From contig JAJFIQ010000007.1 in assembly GCA_021774785.1 (NCBI GenBank), positions 1 through 38,312 of the forward strand: a stretch of 38,312 bases of DNA. The letters run 5' to 3'. Source of the stretch: Emcibacter sp. GTDB taxonomy: Bacteria > Pseudomonadota > Alphaproteobacteria > Sphingomonadales > Emcibacteraceae. Each line of letters opens with the position of its first letter. Within the stretch, counting starts at the first letter, position 1. The position numbers were made by a program, and so were the translations under genes. Below, in pieces: positions 778 to 11,300 of this stretch. The notes under the pieces were generated by a model. That model had not been told where the DNA came from and did not search any database. It saw only the letters and a list, made by a program, of their open reading frames with translations.

Positions 778-2907
778 ATGTCCATAAACTCAATCCTTGG
801 CAATGCCCTCTCAGGACTGAATGCAGCCCAATTGGGCCTGCGCTCAGCCTCGACCAATATCAGCAATGTCAACACACCTGCCTATGCCCGCACACAAGCC
901 AACATTGTCTCGCGTAATGTTGCGGGCGCTGGCCTTGGTGTTGATGCCGCAAGCCTGACACGCATTACCGACAGATTTTTGCTAGCCACATCTTTAAGTG
1001 CCAACGCTGATGCTGCCGCAGGTGGAGCAAAAGCTACGCTTCTGGACCGGGTACAGGCACAATTTGGTTCGCTGGACGATGCAGGTTCTCTTTTTGCCCG
1101 TCTCAACAGCGCTTTTGTAGAAATTGGATCTGCTGCACTGGACCCGGCTTCGGACGTTCGCCGCCTGACCGCTGTAACAGATGTACAATTTTTGTTTGAT
1201 GAGTTTGCCCGCCTTGAAGGTGAATTGCTAACAGCACGAAGCGAAGCTCAGCGACAAATTAGTTTTAACATCGAACAGGCCAATTCATTAATCTTGCAAA
1301 TCAGCGACATGAATAACGATATTACTCTGGGTAGTCTGCAAGGCGATTCAACGGGCGCAGAAAATCGGCAGGAGGCCCTGATAACAGAGCTTTCCGAGAT
1401 ACTGGATATTAAAGTTGACCGGACTGAAAATGGTGGCGCTGTTTTACGAACCTCGGACGGTGTTTTATTGCTGGGTCAGTTTCCTTTGACCATCGAAGGG
1501 CCTAACGCCGGCCCGGGCGACCTTGGTCAAAGCTTTGCCCCTATCCAAGGCCGTAGCCCATCGGGAAATGTGGTGGAATTACAATCGCACTTCAAAAGCG
1601 GAGCACTGCGCGGTTATCTGGATTTACGCGATCAGGAATTGCCTGCGCTGGCGCTGGAACTGGCTGAATTTGCCTCCGGAACCGCCGATGCGCTAAACGC
1701 TGCACACACCAACGCCACTGCCGTACCCGCACCCACCACACTACGGGGCCGCAATACCGGGCTTTTAAGTACTGATGCCCTCAATTTTACGGGGCAAACC
1801 AGTATAGCGCTGGTTGATACCGCCGGCGGATTGGTGCGCCGGGTTGATATAGATTTTGATGCGGGAACACTGAGCGTTGATGGTGGCGCCCCAACTGCAT
1901 TTGGTGCAACAGTTGGTAACGTCACCACAGCGTTGGATACGGCACTGGGTGCGCTGGGTACTATCAGCTTCACCAATGGGGAATTGCGCATCAATGCCGC
2001 CGGGGCCAACGGTGTTTCGCTTATTCAAGACGCAACAACACCATCCGCGCGGGCCGGACGCAGTTTTGCCCATTTCTTCGGTCTCAATGAGTTAGTTACC
2101 AGCGCCCAGCCCACTCAGTTTGAAACCGGCATTGTCGGCACTGACGCCCACGGGCTTGGTGCAGGTGGTGCTCTGGATTTTACTATTACCGGCCCTGATG
2201 GCCGCACTGCAGCGCAAATCAGCGTTCCTGTCGCCGGGGTTAGTGTCGATGACTACCTTGCTGCACTCAATAACCCGGCAACCGGAATGGGCCGCTTCGT
2301 TACCTTCTCTCTTAATGGTAACGGGCAACTGATACAGACCCCCGTGGTTGGAGCCGAAAATTATACAACAGAAATGAGTGCCGATAGCACGACGCGGGGA
2401 ACTACAGGGCTTTCTTTTTCCCACATTTTTGGTCTTGGTGAAGGCACACGCGGGACACGAAGTTCTGCCTTTGCCATCCGCAGTGATATTGCTGCCAATA
2501 CCAATCTTTTATCCTTGGCGCAGCTAGAGCTTTCCCCGACAACCGTTGTCGGCGATGTGGTGCTTGGCAGCGGTGATGGACGCGGCGGCGAAGCTATCCA
2601 GCATGCCCTTGAACAAACGCGTAACTTTCAAAGCGCCGGATCTTTATCAGGTGTTGCCAGTTCCCTCAGTGATTTTGCCGGACGTTTTGCCACCGATGTC
2701 GGCAGCCGGGCTGCCCGCGCTTTGCGTCAGTCTGATGCGGCCGGTGCTTTAAAAATCGAGGCCGAACAAAGACTGGCCAATACTCAAGGGGTCAACATTG
2801 ATGAAGAACTGGCCCTAATGACCCAATTCCAGCAATCCTATAATGCCTCGGCGCGTCTTATTCAGGCGGCCAAGGAATTAACTGACACCCTTCTCAATAT
2901 CATTTAA
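778..2907 (+). CDS. flgK: Flagellar hook-associated protein 1, FlgK
   Basis: FlgK is the first hook-filament junction protein, secreted through the flagellar export apparatus and assembled on the distal hook. The 709-residue protein has the family's conserved ends. The N-terminal D0 helix begins SINSILGNALSGLNAAQLGL, followed by the rod/hook signature STNISNVNTPAYAR around residues 25-38. The C-terminal helix is GVNIDEELALMTQFQQSYNA followed by a helix ending TLLNII. The middle, about residues 280-600, is rich in Gly, Thr, Ala and Asn, as expected for the variable surface domains. An AAGG at 765-768 serves as a weak ribosome binding site. flgL follows 17 bp downstream, so the two are probably co-transcribed. 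Confidence 0.95.
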   Translation: MSINSILGNALSGLNAAQLGLRSASTNISNVNTPAYARTQANIVSRNVAGAGLGVDAASLTRITDRFLLATSLSANADAAAGGAKATLLDRVQAQFGSLDDAGSLFARLNSAFVEIGSAALDPASDVRRLTAVTDVQFLFDEFARLEGELLTARSEAQRQISFNIEQANSLILQISDMNNDITLGSLQGDSTGAENRQEALITELSEILDIKVDRTENGGAVLRTSDGVLLLGQFPLTIEGPNAGPGDLGQSFAPIQGRSPSGNVVELQSHFKSGALRGYLDLRDQELPALALELAEFASGTADALNAAHTNATAVPAPTTLRGRNTGLLSTDALNFTGQTSIALVDTAGGLVRRVDIDFDAGTLSVDGGAPTAFGATVGNVTTALDTALGALGTISFTNGELRINAAGANGVSLIQDATTPSARAGRSFAHFFGLNELVTSAQPTQFETGIVGTDAHGLGAGGALDFTITGPDGRTAAQISVPVAGVSVDDYLAALNNPATGMGRFVTFSLNGNGQLIQTPVVGAENYTTEMSADSTTRGTTGLSFSHIFGLGEGTRGTRSSAFAIRSDIAANTNLLSLAQLELSPTTVVGDVVLGSGDGRGGEAIQHALEQTRNFQSAGSLSGVASSLSDFAGRFATDVGSRAARALRQSDAAGALKIEAEQRLANTQGVNIDEELALMTQFQQSYNASARLIQAAKELTDTLLNII

Positions 2908-2924
2908 CCATCTGAAAGCCTGCC

Positions 2925-3851
2925 ATGACCCGCATTGCCACCAACGTCTCCAACCAGGTTTCTCTATCGGAATTATTGCGTAATCAAAGTGATTTGCTGG
3001 AAGCACAAAAACAGGTTTCCAGTGGCAAAAAGGCCAGTGACCTTAAAGGCCTGGCGCCGCAATTAGGGGCATTAAATGCAGCCCATAGCCTAAGCGCCCG
3101 CACTGAAAGTTTTCTGCAAGCAGGAAAACAAGTCAGTGGTCGTCTGGCAACGCAAGACCTGGCCCTGAACGAAATTGCAGGTGCCGCTGATGAACTGCGA
3201 CAAAATGTTATTGATGCGATTGGCCTGGATTCCGGAACCACCATAATGCAACAATTGGAGACTGTTTTTGATCGGGCACTTAACGGACTAAACCAGACAT
3301 ATTCAGGCCATCCCTTGTTTGGTGGCAGCAAAGTAGATGCCCCTCCGGTGAATATTCCCACATTAAATGACCTGGGTACTGCCGCCGCAGTTGCGGATGT
3401 TTTTGACAACACAAAAGTAAAAGTAACCGCACGCTTGGATGAAGGTAGGCCAGTAGAAATTGGATTTCTTGCAGACGATATTGGTACTGATATTTTGACA
3501 GCTATAAAATCCATCAAAGATTTTAACGATAGTGCCTCTGGTCCTTTCGGTGCACAGTTAACGGCCGCACAAAAAACTTTTTTGCAAACCACGTTGAGCA
3601 GCATTACAAGTGCCGCAGAGGGCTTAAATGCCGTGGTTGGCAAAAACGGGTTGCTGCAAAACCGCGTGGAAAACGCGCAAACCCGTGCCGAAGATCAACA
3701 ACTTTTGTTACGGCAAGTTATAGGTGAAATTGAGGATGTGGATTTAGCCGAAGCTGCCACGCGCCTATCGCAAGCGCAAACCGCTGTTGAGGCTTCGGCG
3801 CGAACATTCTCGCTCTTAAGCAACCTCTCGCTGCTGAACTTCTTGCGTTAA
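2925..3851 (+). CDS. flgL: Flagellar hook-associated protein 3, FlgL
   Basis: FlgL is the second junction protein, linking FlgK to the flagellin filament. The 308-residue product shows the flagellin-like N-terminal helix (TRIATNVSNQVSLSELLRNQ, then QKQVSSGKKASDLKG) and the matching C-terminal helix (EDVDLAEAATRLSQAQTAVE, ending LSLLNFLR). The central part, about residues 120-220, is the divergent exposed domain. The length is normal for the family. It lies 17 bp after flgK and ends 1 bp before the stop of the convergent methyltransferase gene, so no room is left for an intergenic terminator. A flagellin is the main alternative, but size and adjacency to flgK favour FlgL. Confidence 0.92.
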   Translation: MTRIATNVSNQVSLSELLRNQSDLLEAQKQVSSGKKASDLKGLAPQLGALNAAHSLSARTESFLQAGKQVSGRLATQDLALNEIAGAADELRQNVIDAIGLDSGTTIMQQLETVFDRALNGLNQTYSGHPLFGGSKVDAPPVNIPTLNDLGTAAAVADVFDNTKVKVTARLDEGRPVEIGFLADDIGTDILTAIKSIKDFNDSASGPFGAQLTAAQKTFLQTTLSSITSAAEGLNAVVGKNGLLQNRVENAQTRAEDQQLLLRQVIGEIEDVDLAEAATRLSQAQTAVEASARTFSLLSNLSLLNFLR

Positions 3852-3852
3852 C

Positions 3853-4575
3853 TTAGTTCTGCGCACAAATTACCGCTTCTCGGTATTCCAGCCAAAGCAC
3901 GCTGACGTGTGAAAAGCCGGCTTCACGAAAGAGCGCCAGATCTGCCTCAACATCCAAAGGTTGATCGCCTTCTGCACGCTCCATTTCGCCAAGGTAGGCA
4001 TGTGTTTCGGCTTTGTTGGCAAAGCGCTCATCACCCGCACCGGCGCGTTCCAAAATGCCCTCAACACGTAAATCCTGAATGCGCGTCTCAAATTCGGGGG
4101 ATTCATTTTTGACAAGATCAGCATTGAAAAGAAGGCCGCCCGGTACCAGAAGTTCCCGACATTCACGCAAAACGTCCACCTTCTCCGCAGCGTTTAAATG
4201 GTGCAAGGCATAGGATGACACCACCGCATCAAAAGAGGCCGGTTCCAGTTCTAACCCCGCCAGCTCACGAAAATCCGAACACTTGTAGACAATACGGTTA
4301 TTGTGCTTTTCCAGTCTGGATTTTGCCAGATCAAGAATGTTTTGAGCCCCGTCAAGACAGGTAATATTCACACCTGAAAATCGCTGTGCCAGACGTTCTG
4401 CAACAAACCCGGTGCCGCAACCAAGGTCAAGCACACGAATAGGCGCAGCGTTCAGGCCAGCAAGAAAATCCAGTGCTATATCTGCCATCTTGCCCCTGTT
4501 CGGGTGCATAACATCCATATCGGCGTCATATTTTTCAATGCGCCCAATATCGTCATATCTGTCTATGCTGCTCAT
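3853..4575 (-). CDS. Class I SAM-dependent methyltransferase
   Basis: This 240-residue protein has a Rossmann-type methyltransferase core. Motif I is RVLDLGCGTGFVAERLA around residues 47-63. An acidic post-I residue follows in ITCLDGAQ, and the motif IV/V segment is SFDAVVSSYALHHL. The layout matches methyltransferase family 11/12/25 enzymes, but nothing fixes the acceptor. It is the last of three minus-strand genes (mutY, msrC, this one) with a 45-bp gap to msrC, so it is likely co-transcribed with repair functions. It converges with flgL. A small-molecule, quinone or tRNA acceptor are all possible. Confidence 0.85.
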   Translation of the reverse strand: MSSIDRYDDIGRIEKYDADMDVMHPNRGKMADIALDFLAGLNAAPIRVLDLGCGTGFVAERLAQRFSGVNITCLDGAQNILDLAKSRLEKHNNRIVYKCSDFRELAGLELEPASFDAVVSSYALHHLNAAEKVDVLRECRELLVPGGLLFNADLVKNESPEFETRIQDLRVEGILERAGAGDERFANKAETHAYLGEMERAEGDQPLDVEADLALFREAGFSHVSVLWLEYREAVICAQN

Positions 4576-5122: not shown

Positions 5123-6217
5123 CTATTTAGGGGGCATGTCGGCCTGTGCCAAGACTTTGCGCATGAGGCTAGGCAGGGCTTCATCGTCCAGCGCATTCAG
5201 GGCTGCCCACCAGCCCTCATTAATTTGATAACTTTCGGGAGCCTCGGCTTCATAGACGTCAAGCATCAGGATGAAATGGGTAAACACATGCCGGACAGTA
5301 CCACAAGCACACCATTTGGCCGTTACGGGTGCTTCTTCCAGCCATAGTTTAGATGTTCCTTTTTCCACGCCCCATACTGTTCCCGGCACTTCGCTCATCG
5401 CGCCCAAAAGCCCCTTGGCCGGACGCCGACGTAATAGCACACTATCATGCCGACGCAGGACAAAGGCCGCGCCAAAGCGTACCTGTTTTACTTTTTTTGG
5501 TGCCCGGCGGGGATAACTCGTCGCATCACCAGCCTTGGCGGCGGCGCAAAACTGGTTCAACGGGCAGGCATTGCAGTCGGGGTTTTTGGGGCGACACACA
5601 ATCGCGCCCAAATCCATAAGTGCCTGTGGCCAGTCCTCTGCCCGTATTGGTGTCACGTAATGCGCTGCAATGGCTTTTAACTGCGCCTTGGCACGCGGCA
5701 AGGGGGTATTATGTCGGTGCAAGCGGGCCATCACCCGCTCTATATTGCCATCAATCACATTGGTGGGCGCACAGTGGATGATGGCCATCATCGCTGCTGC
5801 GGTATAATCGCCAATACCGGGCAAGGCACGCAGGCCCGCCTCGGTTTGCGGGAATATACCATCATGATGGTCCATCACCATTTGAGCGCAGGCGTGAAGA
5901 TTTCGCGCTCGTGCATAATAGCCCAAACCGGCCCAGGCACTTAACACATCACTTAACGGCGCGGCGGCAAGGTGTTCCACCTTTGGCCAACGTGTCAAAA
6001 AAGCTGCGTAATAGCCCCGTACACTGGCAACGACGGTTTGTTGTAACATAATTTCACTAAGCCACACACGATAAGGGTCTGGCTGCATACCTCGTGCGCG
6101 AGCATCAGGGCGCACCCGCCAGGGTAGCTCGCGCCCTTGCGCGTCATACCAGGCCAGTACCGCCGCCCGGGATAAATTCACGGTTTGTAACAGTGGTTTT
6201 GTTGAATCAGTGCTCAT
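5123..6217 (-). CDS. mutY: A/G-specific adenine glycosylase MutY
   Basis: MutY removes adenine mispaired with 8-oxoguanine, the first step in base-excision repair of this lesion. The 364-residue protein has the catalytic Glu in VWLSEIMLQQTVV (E55) and the helix-hairpin-helix LPGIGDYTAAAM (about 132-143). The catalytic Asp is in VIDGNIERV (D156). The 4Fe-4S loop C-X6-C-X2-C-X5-C lies at residues 208-224. A C-terminal NUDIX-like domain that recognises 8-oxoG follows. Length is normal. Its start is divergent from the DUF721 gene, with 19 bp between their likely start codons. msrC and a methyltransferase gene follow downstream. Confidence 0.95.
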   Translation of the reverse strand: MSTDSTKPLLQTVNLSRAAVLAWYDAQGRELPWRVRPDARARGMQPDPYRVWLSEIMLQQTVVASVRGYYAAFLTRWPKVEHLAAAPLSDVLSAWAGLGYYARARNLHACAQMVMDHHDGIFPQTEAGLRALPGIGDYTAAAMMAIIHCAPTNVIDGNIERVMARLHRHNTPLPRAKAQLKAIAAHYVTPIRAEDWPQALMDLGAIVCRPKNPDCNACPLNQFCAAAKAGDATSYPRRAPKKVKQVRFGAAFVLRRHDSVLLRRRPAKGLLGAMSEVPGTVWGVEKGTSKLWLEEAPVTAKWCACGTVRHVFTHFILMLDVYEAEAPESYQINEGWWAALNALDDEALPSLMRKVLAQADMPPK

Positions 6218-6236
6218 AGAAGCGCATCATGGCCCG

Positions 6237-6839
6237 ATGACAACGCACAATAAAGACAGCTCACCATCTGCGGCCCTGAAAGCACACGTGCGACAGCAGC
6301 GCGCACACACGCGCATTGACCCTGATCGTGCCGCACAATTGCTACGCTTGCCAACGCGCCCCGCCGCCCGGTCAGTGCCAAAAATTGGCCGCAGGGTATT
6401 GGGCATTGTGCGTCCGCTTTTGCGGGGTAATGGGGCCAGCCTGAATGAGCTTTCCATGCGCTGGTCCGAATTAGCTGGTCCGCGCCTTGTGCGCATTTGC
6501 CAGCCGGAAAAGCTTTCACGTAGCCGGGATGGTACTATCCTGACCATTGTGGCGCGCGGTGGTGCCGGGGCGGCGCTGGTTGAACTGGAGGGTAATGCGT
6601 TGATGGCGCGTATTAACACTGCTTTTGGCCGGAATTTTGTTAGCCGCCTGAGTGTTCGCCAAGGCCGCATCGGTGCGCCAATCGCCCATTCTGCCCAACA
6701 ATCTCCCTTAATAGGGCCATCTCCAGTGGAGCTGTCTGCCTTAACGGCAAAACTTGACAGACTGCCCGCTGGTCCGCTGCGTGAAGCAGCACGAAAATTA
6801 GGCCTTGCCATACTGGCACGCAAGGTTCAGTCAGATTAG
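6237..6839 (+). CDS. DUF721 (DciA-like) protein
   Basis: The 200-residue protein contains the DUF721 core (about residues 52-140: IVRPLLRGNGASLNELSMRW through ARGGAGAALVELEGNALMAR). DciA, the best-studied member of this family, loads the replicative helicase in bacteria without DnaC/DnaI. A basic N-terminus precedes the core. The ATG at 6237 was chosen because an upstream GTG in frame at 6210 would overlap mutY. The order mutY, DUF721, dsbA, smc recurs in alphaproteobacteria. Its last 26 bases, encoding ARKVQSD and the stop, are duplicated exactly at the end of the next gene. Confidence 0.8.
   Translation: MTTHNKDSSPSAALKAHVRQQRAHTRIDPDRAAQLLRLPTRPAARSVPKIGRRVLGIVRPLLRGNGASLNELSMRWSELAGPRLVRICQPEKLSRSRDGTILTIVARGGAGAALVELEGNALMARINTAFGRNFVSRLSVRQGRIGAPIAHSAQQSPLIGPSPVELSALTAKLDRLPAGPLREAARKLGLAILARKVQSD
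6814..6839 (+). repeat. 26-bp exact repeat, copy 1 (end of DUF721 gene)
   Basis: The segment begins TGGCACGCAAGG and ends with the TAG stop. It is identical at every base to 7527-7552, 713 bp downstream. The bases just outside differ on both sides, so the repeat is bounded. Confidence 0.95.
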
Positions 6840-6889
6840 GGTAACAGGAGTGTAAACCACTACCTTACCAGGTGTTTAGAGGAAGTATT

Positions 6890-7552
6890 ATGCTTATTTT
6901 ACGTCGAATTATTGCTGTATTTATCCCGCTTGTTTTAAGTGCCGGGCTTGCAACTTGCTCTGGAAAGGGGGCGGATGAGATCACGCGCTCACCTGTCGAA
7001 CGCGATGATGATATGGCACTGGGTAACCCCAAGGCACCTGTAGTCATGGTCGAATATGCGTCACTGACCTGCCCGCATTGCGCTGAATTTCACGAAAATA
7101 TCTTTCCGGAATTAAAGGCAAAATACATCGATACCGGCAAGCTGCGGTTTATCTTTCGCCAACTCCCAACACCGCCGATACCTTATGCCGTTGGCGCCGA
7201 AGCTGTGGCGCGGTGCGCAGGACCAGATAAATACTTTGATCTTCTGGATGCGCTGTACCAGAAGCAGGCATATTGGGTAAGGGCTAGTAATCCACGTAAT
7301 GCACTGATGGAAATAGCGGCAACAGCGGGGATCAATCAGGACGCTTTTGATATGTGTGTCAGTGATGAAAGCAACATCAAGCGCATACAGGAAGTCAGTA
7401 AGCTCGCGAGTGATGAGTTTGGCATCACAGGAACGCCATCTTTTGTTATCAATGGCGAGCGACGACCACATGTTACAAGTCGTCCCTATGTCCTTGAAGA
7501 CTTTACAGTCATCATTGATCCAATGTTGGCACGCAAGGTTCAGTCAGATTAG
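6890..7552 (+). CDS. DsbA-like thiol oxidoreductase, copy 1
   Basis: This is an envelope thioredoxin-fold protein of 220 residues in the DsbA/thioredoxin_4 family. The active site is CPHC at residues 61-64, and the cis-proline loop is ITGTPSFVING. A hydrophobic export segment ends in AGLATC at residue 23. Thr at -1 of that Cys is a poor lipobox, so anchoring is doubtful in this copy. The ATG at 6890 has an AGAGGAAG ribosome binding site; an upstream in-frame ATG at 6872 has none. Much of the protein matches the next gene, but after IIDPM the C-terminus switches to LARKVQSD, the tail of the DUF721 protein. It may form or isomerise disulfides in exported proteins; the partner is unknown. Confidence 0.85.
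   Translation: MLILRRIIAVFIPLVLSAGLATCSGKGADEITRSPVERDDDMALGNPKAPVVMVEYASLTCPHCAEFHENIFPELKAKYIDTGKLRFIFRQLPTPPIPYAVGAEAVARCAGPDKYFDLLDALYQKQAYWVRASNPRNALMEIAATAGINQDAFDMCVSDESNIKRIQEVSKLASDEFGITGTPSFVINGERRPHVTSRPYVLEDFTVIIDPMLARKVQSD
7527..7552 (+). repeat. 26-bp exact repeat, copy 2 (end of first dsbA-like gene)
   Basis: This is identical to 6814-6839 and supplies the last seven codons and the stop of the first dsbA-like gene. The paralogue diverges from copy 1 exactly here (IIDPM then LARKVQSD versus IIDPI then LGIKPEP). That places the recombination junction at the TTGG just before or at 7527. Confidence 0.9.
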
Positions 7553-7605
7553 TATCTTGCACAGACTCAAGAATCGTAAGTTTATAACCGTTCGGGAGAA
7601 TTTTC

Positions 7606-8331
7606 ATGTTTAATATACGTCGCCTCTTCGTTGTTCTGATGCCACTTGTCATAAGCGCCGGGCTTGCTGCCTGTTCTGGTGGTGGTTCCGGTGGAGACGG
7701 GCGTTCAGCAGGGGAGCGTGATGATGACATGGCCATGGGCGACCCAAATGCGCCGGTGGTGATGGTTGAATATGCTTCACTAACCTGCCCGCATTGCGCC
7801 GATTTTCACGAGGAAATTTTCCCGGAACTAAAAGAAAAATACATCGACACCGGCAAAATGCGGTTTGTCTTTCGCCAGTTCCCCACCTCACCTGTGCCTT
7901 ATGCCGTAGGCGGCGAGGCTGTGGCGCGCTGCGCCGGGCCGGATAAATATTTTGACCTGCTGGATGTTCTTTATGAAAAGCAGCGTTACTGGGTGACCTC
8001 GAATAACCCGCGCCAGGCGCTTATGGAAATAGCGGCAACAGCGGGGATCAGTCAGGATGCTTTTGATGCGTGCGTCAGTGATGAAGCCAACATCAAACGC
8101 ATTCAGGAAGTAAGCAAAATCGCTCAGGATGATTTTAAAATTACCGGCACGCCATCATTTGTCATTAATGGCAAACTGCGACCCCGGGTGCGCACATTGG
8201 AAAGTTTTGTGGAAATCATTGATCCTATTTTGGGGATCAAGCCTGAACCAAAACCTGAGCCAGCGCCTGAAACTGAGCCCGAAACTGAGCCCGAAACTGA
8301 GGCTGGTTCTAGCGAAAACGAGGAACACTAG
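7606..8331 (+). CDS. DsbA-like thiol oxidoreductase lipoprotein, copy 2
   Basis: This 241-residue paralogue of the preceding gene has the same layout. A signal segment is followed by a good lipobox (GLAAC, Cys at residue 23), then a Gly/Ser linker, CPHC at residues 61-64, a cis-Pro loop (ITGTPSFVING), and an acidic Pro/Glu-rich tail (about residues 212-241). The ribosome binding site GGGAG precedes the ATG. The product is predicted to be an inner-membrane lipoprotein facing the periplasm that oxidises or isomerises disulfides. It overlaps the ribosome-binding region of smc: GAGGA at 8319-8323 lies inside this gene. This copy probably represents the ancestral gene because it keeps its own 3' end. 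Confidence 0.88.
   Translation: MFNIRRLFVVLMPLVISAGLAACSGGGSGGDGRSAGERDDDMAMGDPNAPVVMVEYASLTCPHCADFHEEIFPELKEKYIDTGKMRFVFRQFPTSPVPYAVGGEAVARCAGPDKYFDLLDVLYEKQRYWVTSNNPRQALMEIAATAGISQDAFDACVSDEANIKRIQEVSKIAQDDFKITGTPSFVINGKLRPRVRTLESFVEIIDPILGIKPEPKPEPAPETEPETEPETEAGSSENEEH
8269..8301 (+). repeat. 12-bp tandem repeat encoding Glu-Thr-Glu-Pro
   Basis: GAAACTGAGCCC occurs at 8269-8280 and 8281-8292, with nine bases of a third copy to 8301. It encodes an ETEP unit in the acidic tail of the second DsbA-like protein. In-frame slippage would change the tail length without breaking the gene. Confidence 0.85.
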
Positions 8332-8335
8332 GTAC

Positions 8336-11300
8336 GTGCAATTCACTGCGCTCAAACTGGCGGGCTTCAAGTCCTTCATCGACCCGGCGGAGTTTCGTAT
8401 CGAGCCGGGGCTGACCGGTGTGGTTGGCCCCAATGGTTGTGGTAAATCCAACATTTTGGAGGCCTTGCGCTGGGTGATGGGGGCCAATTCGGCCAAGGCC
8501 ATGCGCGCCGGGGCTATGGACGAGGTGATCTTTTCCGGCTCAGCCAGCCGTCCGGCACGCAATCATGCCGAAGTTGTACTGATCGTTGATAATGCTGACC
8601 GCACCGCACCATCGCGCTTTAATGATAATGATATTCTGGAGGTTTCGCGCCGCATCTCCCGTGGTGCCGGTTCAACCTATCGCATTAATGGGGCCGAGGT
8701 ACGGGCGCGTGATGTGCAATTATTATTTGCAGACGCTTCGACGGGTGCCAATTCTCCGGCGCTGGTGCGTCAGGGGCAAATTTCCGAACTGATCTCTGCC
8801 AAGCCGCAAAACCGCCGCCGGGTACTGGAAGAGGCTGCGGGCATTTCCGGCCTGCACAACCGCCGCCATGAAGCCGAGCTGCGCTTGCGGGCAGCAGAAA
8901 ACAACCTTTCCCGGCTGGATGATGTCTTTGGCGAGATCGAAGCCCAGCACGCCCAGTTAAAACGTCAGGTACGAGCCGCCACGCGCTATCGCAATCTTTC
9001 GGCGCAAATCCGTGCCCTGGAAGCCTTTAGTGCACATTTGCGCTGGAGCGAAGCCAAGGCACAGGTTGAAACGCTAGAAGAAGAATTGCGCGCCACTACC
9101 AGCATGACAGGTAAGTTGACCGCTGCTGCTGCTGCTGCCCGCACAACCGCTGAGCAAAGCACCCAGGGGCTGGATGACCTGCGCCAGGAAGAAGCCGTTG
9201 CCGCCGCCTTGCTAGCCCGCACAACTGCCGCCGTAGAGGCCATTGAACGCGATGCCAGTGAAGCACAAACCCGAATAGAGCAATTGCAGACACGCCTAGA
9301 AGAACTGGGCCGTGATCGTGAACATGAGGAAACCGTGATTGAGGATGGCCAGACCGCCATCACCCGCCTTGAGGGCGAGGCGCGCTCCTTGCAAAGCGCG
9401 GGCATAGATGAAGATGCGGTTGAGAAGCTAACGGATCGGCGCGATGAAACGGCTAAGGCACGGGCCAAAGCCGAAACAGAATTGTCGCAAATTCAGGCAC
9501 GCCATGCTGAACATATTGCTGATCGCCGCGCCGCAGAACAAAGTTGCGCCCATAGCGATGCCCAACTTGTTCGTGCAGAAGAAGAAGTATCGCGCGCGCA
9601 AACAACCCTTGAAAACATCAAACAGAACGACAGCGCTTTATCCCGCTATAAAGAAGCTAAAGAGGCCGTTCAGGCAGCTGAAGATGTATTGGTTGCAAAA
9701 CGAAATGCTCTGGCTGGTTTTGAAACGAAACGTCATGATGCCGAAGAAGCCGAGCGTCATAGCCGCGAACGCTTTGATGATGCCCGCCGTGAGCAAGCCG
9801 CCTTGCAAGCCGAAGCCGATGGTCTGGCCAAGGCGTTATCCGGGCAGGAAGCGGGCGACTGGCCAGAAATCTCGGATCAGATTAATGTGCGCTCAGGCTA
9901 TGAGCGCGCCGTTGCCGTCGCCTTTGGTGATGATTTGCAAGCCTCGGACGATAAGGGCGCACCAGTACACTGGCATGGTGCATCAGAAATTAATGCCGCT
10001 TTGCCAGATGGCACGAAACCACTTGCAGATTTTGTAAAAGCGCCTGATGTGCTGGCCGCCCGGCTTTCGCAAACTGGTTTGGTAGATGCCAGCAAAGGTG
10101 CTGGCTTGGCTAATGCACTAAAACCCGGTCAGCGCCTTGTCAGTCTGGAAGGTCATTTATGGCGCTGGGATGGATTACGTGTCAGTGCCGAAGCCCCGGC
10201 CCCGGCAGCGCAGCGCCTTGAACAACGAGGCCGCCTCGCCGCCCTCACACCGCTATGTGAAAGCGCACAGGAAGAGACACAAACCACCCGCGCCACATGG
10301 CTGCAAGCCAAAGAGAAGGTTAGTGAGACACGGGAGGCAGAAAAAACAGCACGTAAAAAACTGCCCGGGGCTGAAGCTGAATTAAGAAGAGTATCTGAGC
10401 AATTTGCTACGCTGGACCGTCAGCAAAGCGCCGAAGCGGCGCGTGCACAGGCGCAGGAAGAAGCACTGGTGCGCTGGCAGGGTGTGTTTGGCGAAGCTGA
10501 GGCCAGCGCCAAGGCAGCGCACGCAGCATTGGCGGCCTTGCCGGATATTGATAATGAAGCGGGCGAGCGGGCCATTGCCCGTGCCGAAGATAATGCGGTT
10601 GCTGCGCGTGCGGATGCCGCCGATGCGGATGGTGCCTTGCGGGCGCTGGTTCGTGAAGCCGAAGCACGGTCATTGCGACTAAACGCCATTGAGGCAGAAC
10701 TGGATCAATGGCGAAACCGCACCAAAAATGCTGTAGCGCGCAGTGAAGCACTTGCTGTGCGAGAAACAACCAGTTCCGAAGACCTGACCCGTGCCCGTTC
10801 TGCACCTGATGAAATCAGTGCACGCCGGGAAGAAGCTTTTGCCGCTTCTGAAGCAACCGAGAAACGGCGCACAGCCGCAGCTGATGCGTTGGCCGAGGCA
10901 GAAAGCAAACGTCGCGCTGCCGAAACCCACGCCCGTGAGGCTGAGGCCGAGGCAGCTAAATTACGCGAATCCCGTGCTGGCGGTGAAGCCCGCCTTCAGG
11001 GTGCGCAGGAACGCCTTGGCGAAATTGTGGAGCGCATTGGCGAAACCTTGCATTGCGCACCCGAAGCTCTGGCGGCGCAGGGGGAGGCCTTGAACCAGAC
11101 CCCGGATGATGCACATGGGGCTGAACAAAAGCTGGATACATTGCGCCGACATCGTGATGGTATAGGGCCTGTGAATTTACGCGCCGGCGAAGAAGCCGAA
11201 GAAGCCGAAGAACGTTTGCAGGCCATGGGGACTGACCGTGATGACCTAGTGGCGGCCATTAACAAGCTTAGACAGGGCATAGGCAGTTTAAACGCCGAAG

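Follow-up and report, generated by a model that had tools for sequence, protein, structure and literature searches.

A recent short templated substitution probably gave a tandem dsbA gene the 3' end of the neighboring DUF721 gene at a mutY-smc locus

The question raised by this locus is why two different neighboring genes end in the same 26 nucleotides. In the window (the whole stretch of DNA that was analyzed, 38,312 nt), the sequence TGGCACGCAAGGTTCAGTCAGATTAG was found at 6814-6839 and 7527-7552, with 26/26 positions identical, and in both places it reads LARKVQSD* and closes in frame with the TAG stop of its own gene, the DUF721/DciA gene in one case and the first of two dsbA-like genes (dsbA1) in the other. 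The earlier note had correctly described the recurrence of the DUF721 end, and the puzzle that it raised was a fair one: dsbA1 and the second copy, dsbA2, are 73% alike in protein, only 34 of 78 fourfold sites are identical, which is near saturation, and the spacers upstream of them show no more similarity than shuffled sequences do, yet the end shared with DUF721 is perfect. The features of the locus, all on the + strand, are as follows.

6237..6839, +, DUF721/DciA gene, donor of the tail (Pfam DciA PF05258, 39.9 bits, cut-off 24)
6814..6839, +, repeat copy 1, donor (exact match, genome and shuffle searches)
6840..6889, +, dsbA1 upstream spacer, lacks the promoter-like element (similarity to 7553-7605 no higher than in shuffles)
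6890..7552, +, dsbA1, derived second copy of the DsbA-like gene (Thioredoxin_4 PF13462, 142.2 bits)
7307..7334 (= 8023-8050), +, 28-nt perfect run, possible small conversion tract (dsbA1/dsbA2 comparison)
7481..7492, +, 4-residue insert in dsbA1 (in all three dsbA1 copies, absent from 9 other aligned rows)
7527..7552, +, repeat copy 2, transplanted tail, TGG + 18 nt + ATTAG (exact match, relatives, flank comparison)
7557..7587, +, promoter-like TTGCAC-N8-GAATC-N7-TATAA, ancestral dsbA-smc leader (kept in genus leaders)
7606..8331, +, dsbA2, ancestral copy with a Pro/Glu tail, 4 nt before smc (identity to the smc-adjacent dsbA of relatives)

The start of DUF721 was judged from the sequence to be the ATG at 6237 (or the GTG at 6210), and the DUF721 queries used in the searches began at codon 6228; smc starts with the GTG at 8336. 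Both DsbA proteins carry a CPHC motif and score far above the curated Pfam Thioredoxin_4/DSBA cut-off of 23.2 bits (dsbA2 with 142.7 bits), and the N-terminus of dsbA1 is lipobox-like by eye. The identity of dsbA2 to the smc-adjacent dsbA is 79-86% in G716, G790, G831, G846, G872, and G873 and 73% in G761. A tandem duplication of dsbA, with the DUF721 tail at the end of the first copy, is supported. Also, the Pro/Glu tail of dsbA2, which is variable among relatives, contains a coding 12-nt tandem repeat of 3.1 copies at 8265-8301.

With up to 3 mismatches, the 26-mer was found at two places in the window, compared with none in 100 shuffles, and likewise at two places in the whole genome assembly, so that a dispersed independent element, which the earlier note had named as a possible refutation, was rejected. 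Viral contigs searched for the exact 26-mer and plasmids searched by megablast with 6700-8400 gave no match. The donor copy lies 713 nt upstream of the recipient copy on the same strand. The 26-mer is not the sole perfect stretch at this locus, given the 28-nt run between dsbA1 and dsbA2.

Close kin of the locus were sought in the genus, family, and order of the assembly, and none were found; a further search gave 49% as the best among the matches listed, and a search of viral contigs found no relative. The assembly's own genus is uninformative because the contig of the window seems out of place there: on contig C11, the assembly carries a mutY-DUF721-dsbA-dsbA-smc-atpI-atpB locus of its own, where MutY is 45% like that of the window. 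In a tree of 158 rows, the dsbA pair of the window was placed as sisters on the Caulobacterales side (SH-aLRT 99), and after the tree had pointed there, a search of 398 genomes of the Caulobacterales order identified the source genus (g304, 18 genomes), of which 15 matched at E 1e-20 or better. The genome nearest to the window was G716 (98/98 in a MutY+DUF721+SMC tree), with synteny from 4.6 to 16.2 kb and AtpB 98% identical.

Several observations concern the contig itself (window 1-38312, G000:C25), which looks foreign to its assembly, its left part being akin to g304. Second copies of MutY, DUF721, the dsbA pair, SMC, AtpI, and AtpB are on C11, and copies of GlpD and an aldehyde dehydrogenase, 75% and 84% identical, are on C8 with a spacing of about 15.5 kb, which the window also shows. 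The GC content drops from about 0.53 to about 0.455 at 16-20 kb, and the synteny with the stretches of G716 that were read stops at 16.2 kb. The right half is closer to another genus, g1 (aldehyde dehydrogenase 84% identical to G009, and no match at E 1e-60 in 6 g304 genomes), and would be either a transferred island or part of a chimeric contig. FlgK, FlgL, and a methyltransferase gene left of the GAF gene (778-4575) had no match in 62 kb of G716:C54, and an exact 59-nt direct repeat with a spacing of 75 nt lies at the left end of the contig (1-134).

The mutY-smc loci of the source genus, which the earlier note had advised comparing to date the duplication, show that the pair is older than the repeat. 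Among the 15 genus loci read, two dsbA genes were present in two (G716 and G790) and a single dsbA between DUF721 and smc in 12; in G872, the contig ends within the gene, and the presence of a first copy was not judged. The first copies of the window, G716, and G790 all lie between DUF721 and the conserved GAATC leader, and their C-termini are DPMLARKVQSD*, DPLLDHLDN*, and DPLLSAKSE*, respectively, the window alone among the loci read having the shared DUF721/dsbA1 tail. In a tree of the dsbA copies, the first copies of the window and G716 group together (91/80), and these with the first copy of G790 and with G882 (86/85), a long-branched single copy without the insert that was placed beside the G790 first copy; this grouping stays under the 95 bootstrap mark. 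In a window/G716 quartet, orthology has 39 sites in its favor, similarity within genomes 21, and the remaining pairing 11. Because the first copies share their position, the insert, the tree grouping, and the quartet majority, the dsbA pair most likely predates the split of the window and G716, and probably that of G790 as well. The 26-nt repeat, judged from these compared loci, is younger than the dsbA pair.

Across the 14 remaining genus loci that have DUF721, the longest stretch common to both tails was 4-8 nt. Two-copy loci make up 31 of the 136 listed (the window included, and not all independent), of which 30 are true; L148 was dropped as an artefact because its DUF721 and dsbA hits fall in one frame, and 14 were unmeasured because they gave no DUF721 hit. 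In the 15 measured besides the window, the tails again share just 4-8 nt, and an ancient junction common to two-copy loci was rejected. An attachment-site cassette was also rejected, because dsbA1 of G716 and G790 has no flanking repeat. As a separate observation, at least two tandem dsbA-like frames occur at 30/136 mutY-smc loci and several pairs are tree sisters (L034, L035, and the window), and such tandem genes seem to have arisen at this locus more than once (L034, L035, L033/L036/L042/L043, and others). A literature search on dsbA tandem duplication at smc in alphaproteobacteria found no paper treating dsbA.

The direction of the copying can be read from the same relatives. The tail is native to DUF721, with LARKVQSD in the window versus LARNVKPD, SRNVQSQ, and TRTVQKN in relatives. 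In the six nearest relatives with DUF721 on the contig (G716, G831, G790, G846, G761, and G873), the last 26 nt of this gene have 8, 5, 7, 5, 6, and 7 differences from the window, respectively, and in remoter genus members 13-21, while the dsbA1 ends of G716 and G790 have 17 and 13. Since the DUF721 ends of relatives are nearer to the 26-mer than their dsbA1 ends, DUF721 is the donor and dsbA1 the recipient, a direction that is clear. Both flanks of the patch still match the dsbA1 region of G716 (47/60 nt on the left and, beyond the stop codon, 53/59 on the right), and the old dsbA1 end was thus replaced by a patch of about 18-23 nt. Donor, recipient, direction, the bounds of the patch, and its absence from the relatives read are thus all legible at this locus.

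With G716 as a stand-in for the ancestor, its CTGG-12 nt-ATTAG corresponds to TTGG-18 nt-ATTAG in the window, and the event would have exchanged about 12 nt for 18 with the frame kept. At the joints, the left match is TGG and the right one ATTAG, both short enough for chance, and TAG could be shared by chance. The ancestral dsbA1 tail rests on two rows, because dsbA1 occurs in just two relatives. A patch dating from the G716 split should have gathered about 5.7 differences over 23 nt, and 0 were seen (P about 0.003, a rough value from a rough clock with branch lengths from the MutY+DUF721+SMC protein tree). The age of the patch is therefore probably less than about half the length of the window's branch, and its youth would explain why the two 26-nt copies are identical.

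In the spacers, GAATC is present in 15/15 genus leaders (that of the window and those upstream of dsbA in L191-L196 and L211-L218), and TTGCNN-N8-GAATC-N7 in 12/15; in other Caulobacterales-side loci, GANTC lies close to where the first dsbA frame is bounded upstream in 11/18, a raw count without a shuffle control. A scan of the dsbA1 spacers of the window, G716, and G790 found no GANTC. By this comparison, the ancestral leader is the one preceding dsbA2, and the spacer ahead of dsbA1 is not recognizable as a copy of it. GANTC is the CcrM methylation site that is read by GcrA in Caulobacter promoters, and the element is here considered a candidate CcrM/GcrA cell-cycle promoter for dsbA-smc. 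In the available portion of PMC7987155, an extended motif, YGAKTCK, is given for C. crescentus, to which the window's site is no exact match, and such an extension is not given there for a B. species. A sigma-70 consensus scan returned 1 promoter-like site versus 2.0 expected and 0 terminator-like sites versus 3.0 expected; the TTGCAC/TATAA pair went unreported since its spacing of 20 is outside the 16-18 of the scan. As dsbA1 is placed upstream of the element, it is probably transcribed with DUF721, with dsbA2 and smc retaining the old promoter.

The earlier note had attributed the pair to an unequal exchange in which dsbA, close to its 3' end, was fused to the end of DUF721, with gene conversion as one of two ways, the other being a function, in which the 26 nt could have stayed identical. 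The repeat in the same frame and the TGG match at the joint agree with this, and some conversion between dsbA1 and dsbA2 is suggested by the 28-nt perfect run and by clustered fourfold identity (runs test p 0.005; 0.034 for all synonymous codons), although the longest-run permutation gave p 0.055; a row of six conversion-type sites, reached in 2.0% of shuffles, overlaps the run. Small conversions within the pair are suggestive only, and given these signs, conversion may also have been a route for the dsbA1 tail. However, a junction is expected in all two-copy descendants, and it is missing from G716 and G790, which carry the same first copy with unrelated C-termini, the very finding that the note had said would count against it. 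An exchange also predicts two copies of the leader, whereas GAATC is missing from 3/3 dsbA1 spacers (the leader could possibly have been lost after duplication), and it would leave fourfold sites near saturation beside 23 perfect nt. Conversion maintained since the duplication is unsupported for a repeat that is later than the pair, and the exchange as a whole is improbable.

Even less probable is that the 26 nt are a functional element (an RNA, an attachment site, or a C-terminal peptide tag) held identical by selection. The identity does cover synonymous sites and stop at the stop codon, but the DUF721 tails of the six nearest relatives differ at 5-8 of 26 nt, the tail is identical to that of G716 at 18/26 against a gene mean of 19.1/26 (38% of 26-nt stretches are as low), and the genome has no other copy. 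No RNA family match up to E 1 was found in an Rfam search of 5500-8700, and folding energies of the repeat region were like those of shuffles (z 0.06 to 0.54), which leaves the RNA or other function suggested earlier without support. An assembly or binning artefact is similarly very doubtful. The contig looks foreign to its bin, with the same locus on C11 and a cluster related to its right half on C8; against this, both patch flanks match G716 and are ordered as they are there, synteny with G716 extends over 4.6-16.2 kb, and for a misjoin, two breaks separated by about 23 nt would have to be assumed.

The event is best read as a recent, small patchwork copying of DNA, of a known kind, and here it is proposed, with a probability of about 0.8, that an old dsbA pair was followed, in the window lineage only, by replacement of the last codons of dsbA1 with the DUF721 end through a short templated substitution. 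A tandem duplication would have given dsbA1 before the window lineage separated from G716; later, the last few codons would have been replaced by a copy of at most 26 nt from 713 nt upstream, with the 18-nt core between TGG and ATTAG. A short local single strand may have annealed at a replication gap or fork (short-patch double illegitimate recombination, SPDIR), or a brief template switch may have left the same trace. The microhomology on both sides and the enzymes of this step are inferred, as is an ancestral dsbA1 end like that of G716. As the frame and stop codon were kept, the change was apparently tolerated.

SPDIR patches are bounded by microhomologies and are independent of RecA, and the process was reportedly shown by Harms and colleagues in laboratory work with transformable Acinetobacter. 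In the portions available, PMC7192050 names SPDIR (Harms et al. 2016 PNAS) as a process, and the references of PMC8116780 include Harms et al. 2016. The present case resembles SPDIR, in which a short intragenomic patch replaces local sequence with clustered changes: the patch comes from the same genome, with its donor direction given by relatives, and the recipient flanks are homologous to the unpatched G716. It differs from that laboratory system in being deduced from sequences found in nature, with neither reads nor a parent strain to compare. In template switching or microhomology-mediated copying, a short copy is made from a nearby site with matches of a few nt at the joints, as is seen here; however, donor and recipient here share a strand and are 713 nt apart, and no palindrome is needed. 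Unequal crossing over between tandem genes shares with this locus the dsbA pair, but here the repeat came later than the pair.

A wider reading, tentative and on balance unlikely, is that short patches templated nearby arise repeatedly in this operon (26 nt from DUF721 to dsbA1, and 28 nt between the two dsbA genes) and reshape the ends of genes in nature, the repeats making dsbA1 a precisely excisable unit of 713 nt. If true, a deletion between the 26-nt repeats would bring DUF721 back next to the ancestral leader and dsbA2, and such deletions may explain the single-copy relatives. The locus also gives a caution: when two genes share a short perfect repeat, it does not have to be functional or to be left over from their duplication. 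In this natural case, relatives reveal the donor and the recipient of a tiny templated substitution as well as its direction and approximate age, and a new C-terminus would have been gained in one step from a neighboring gene.
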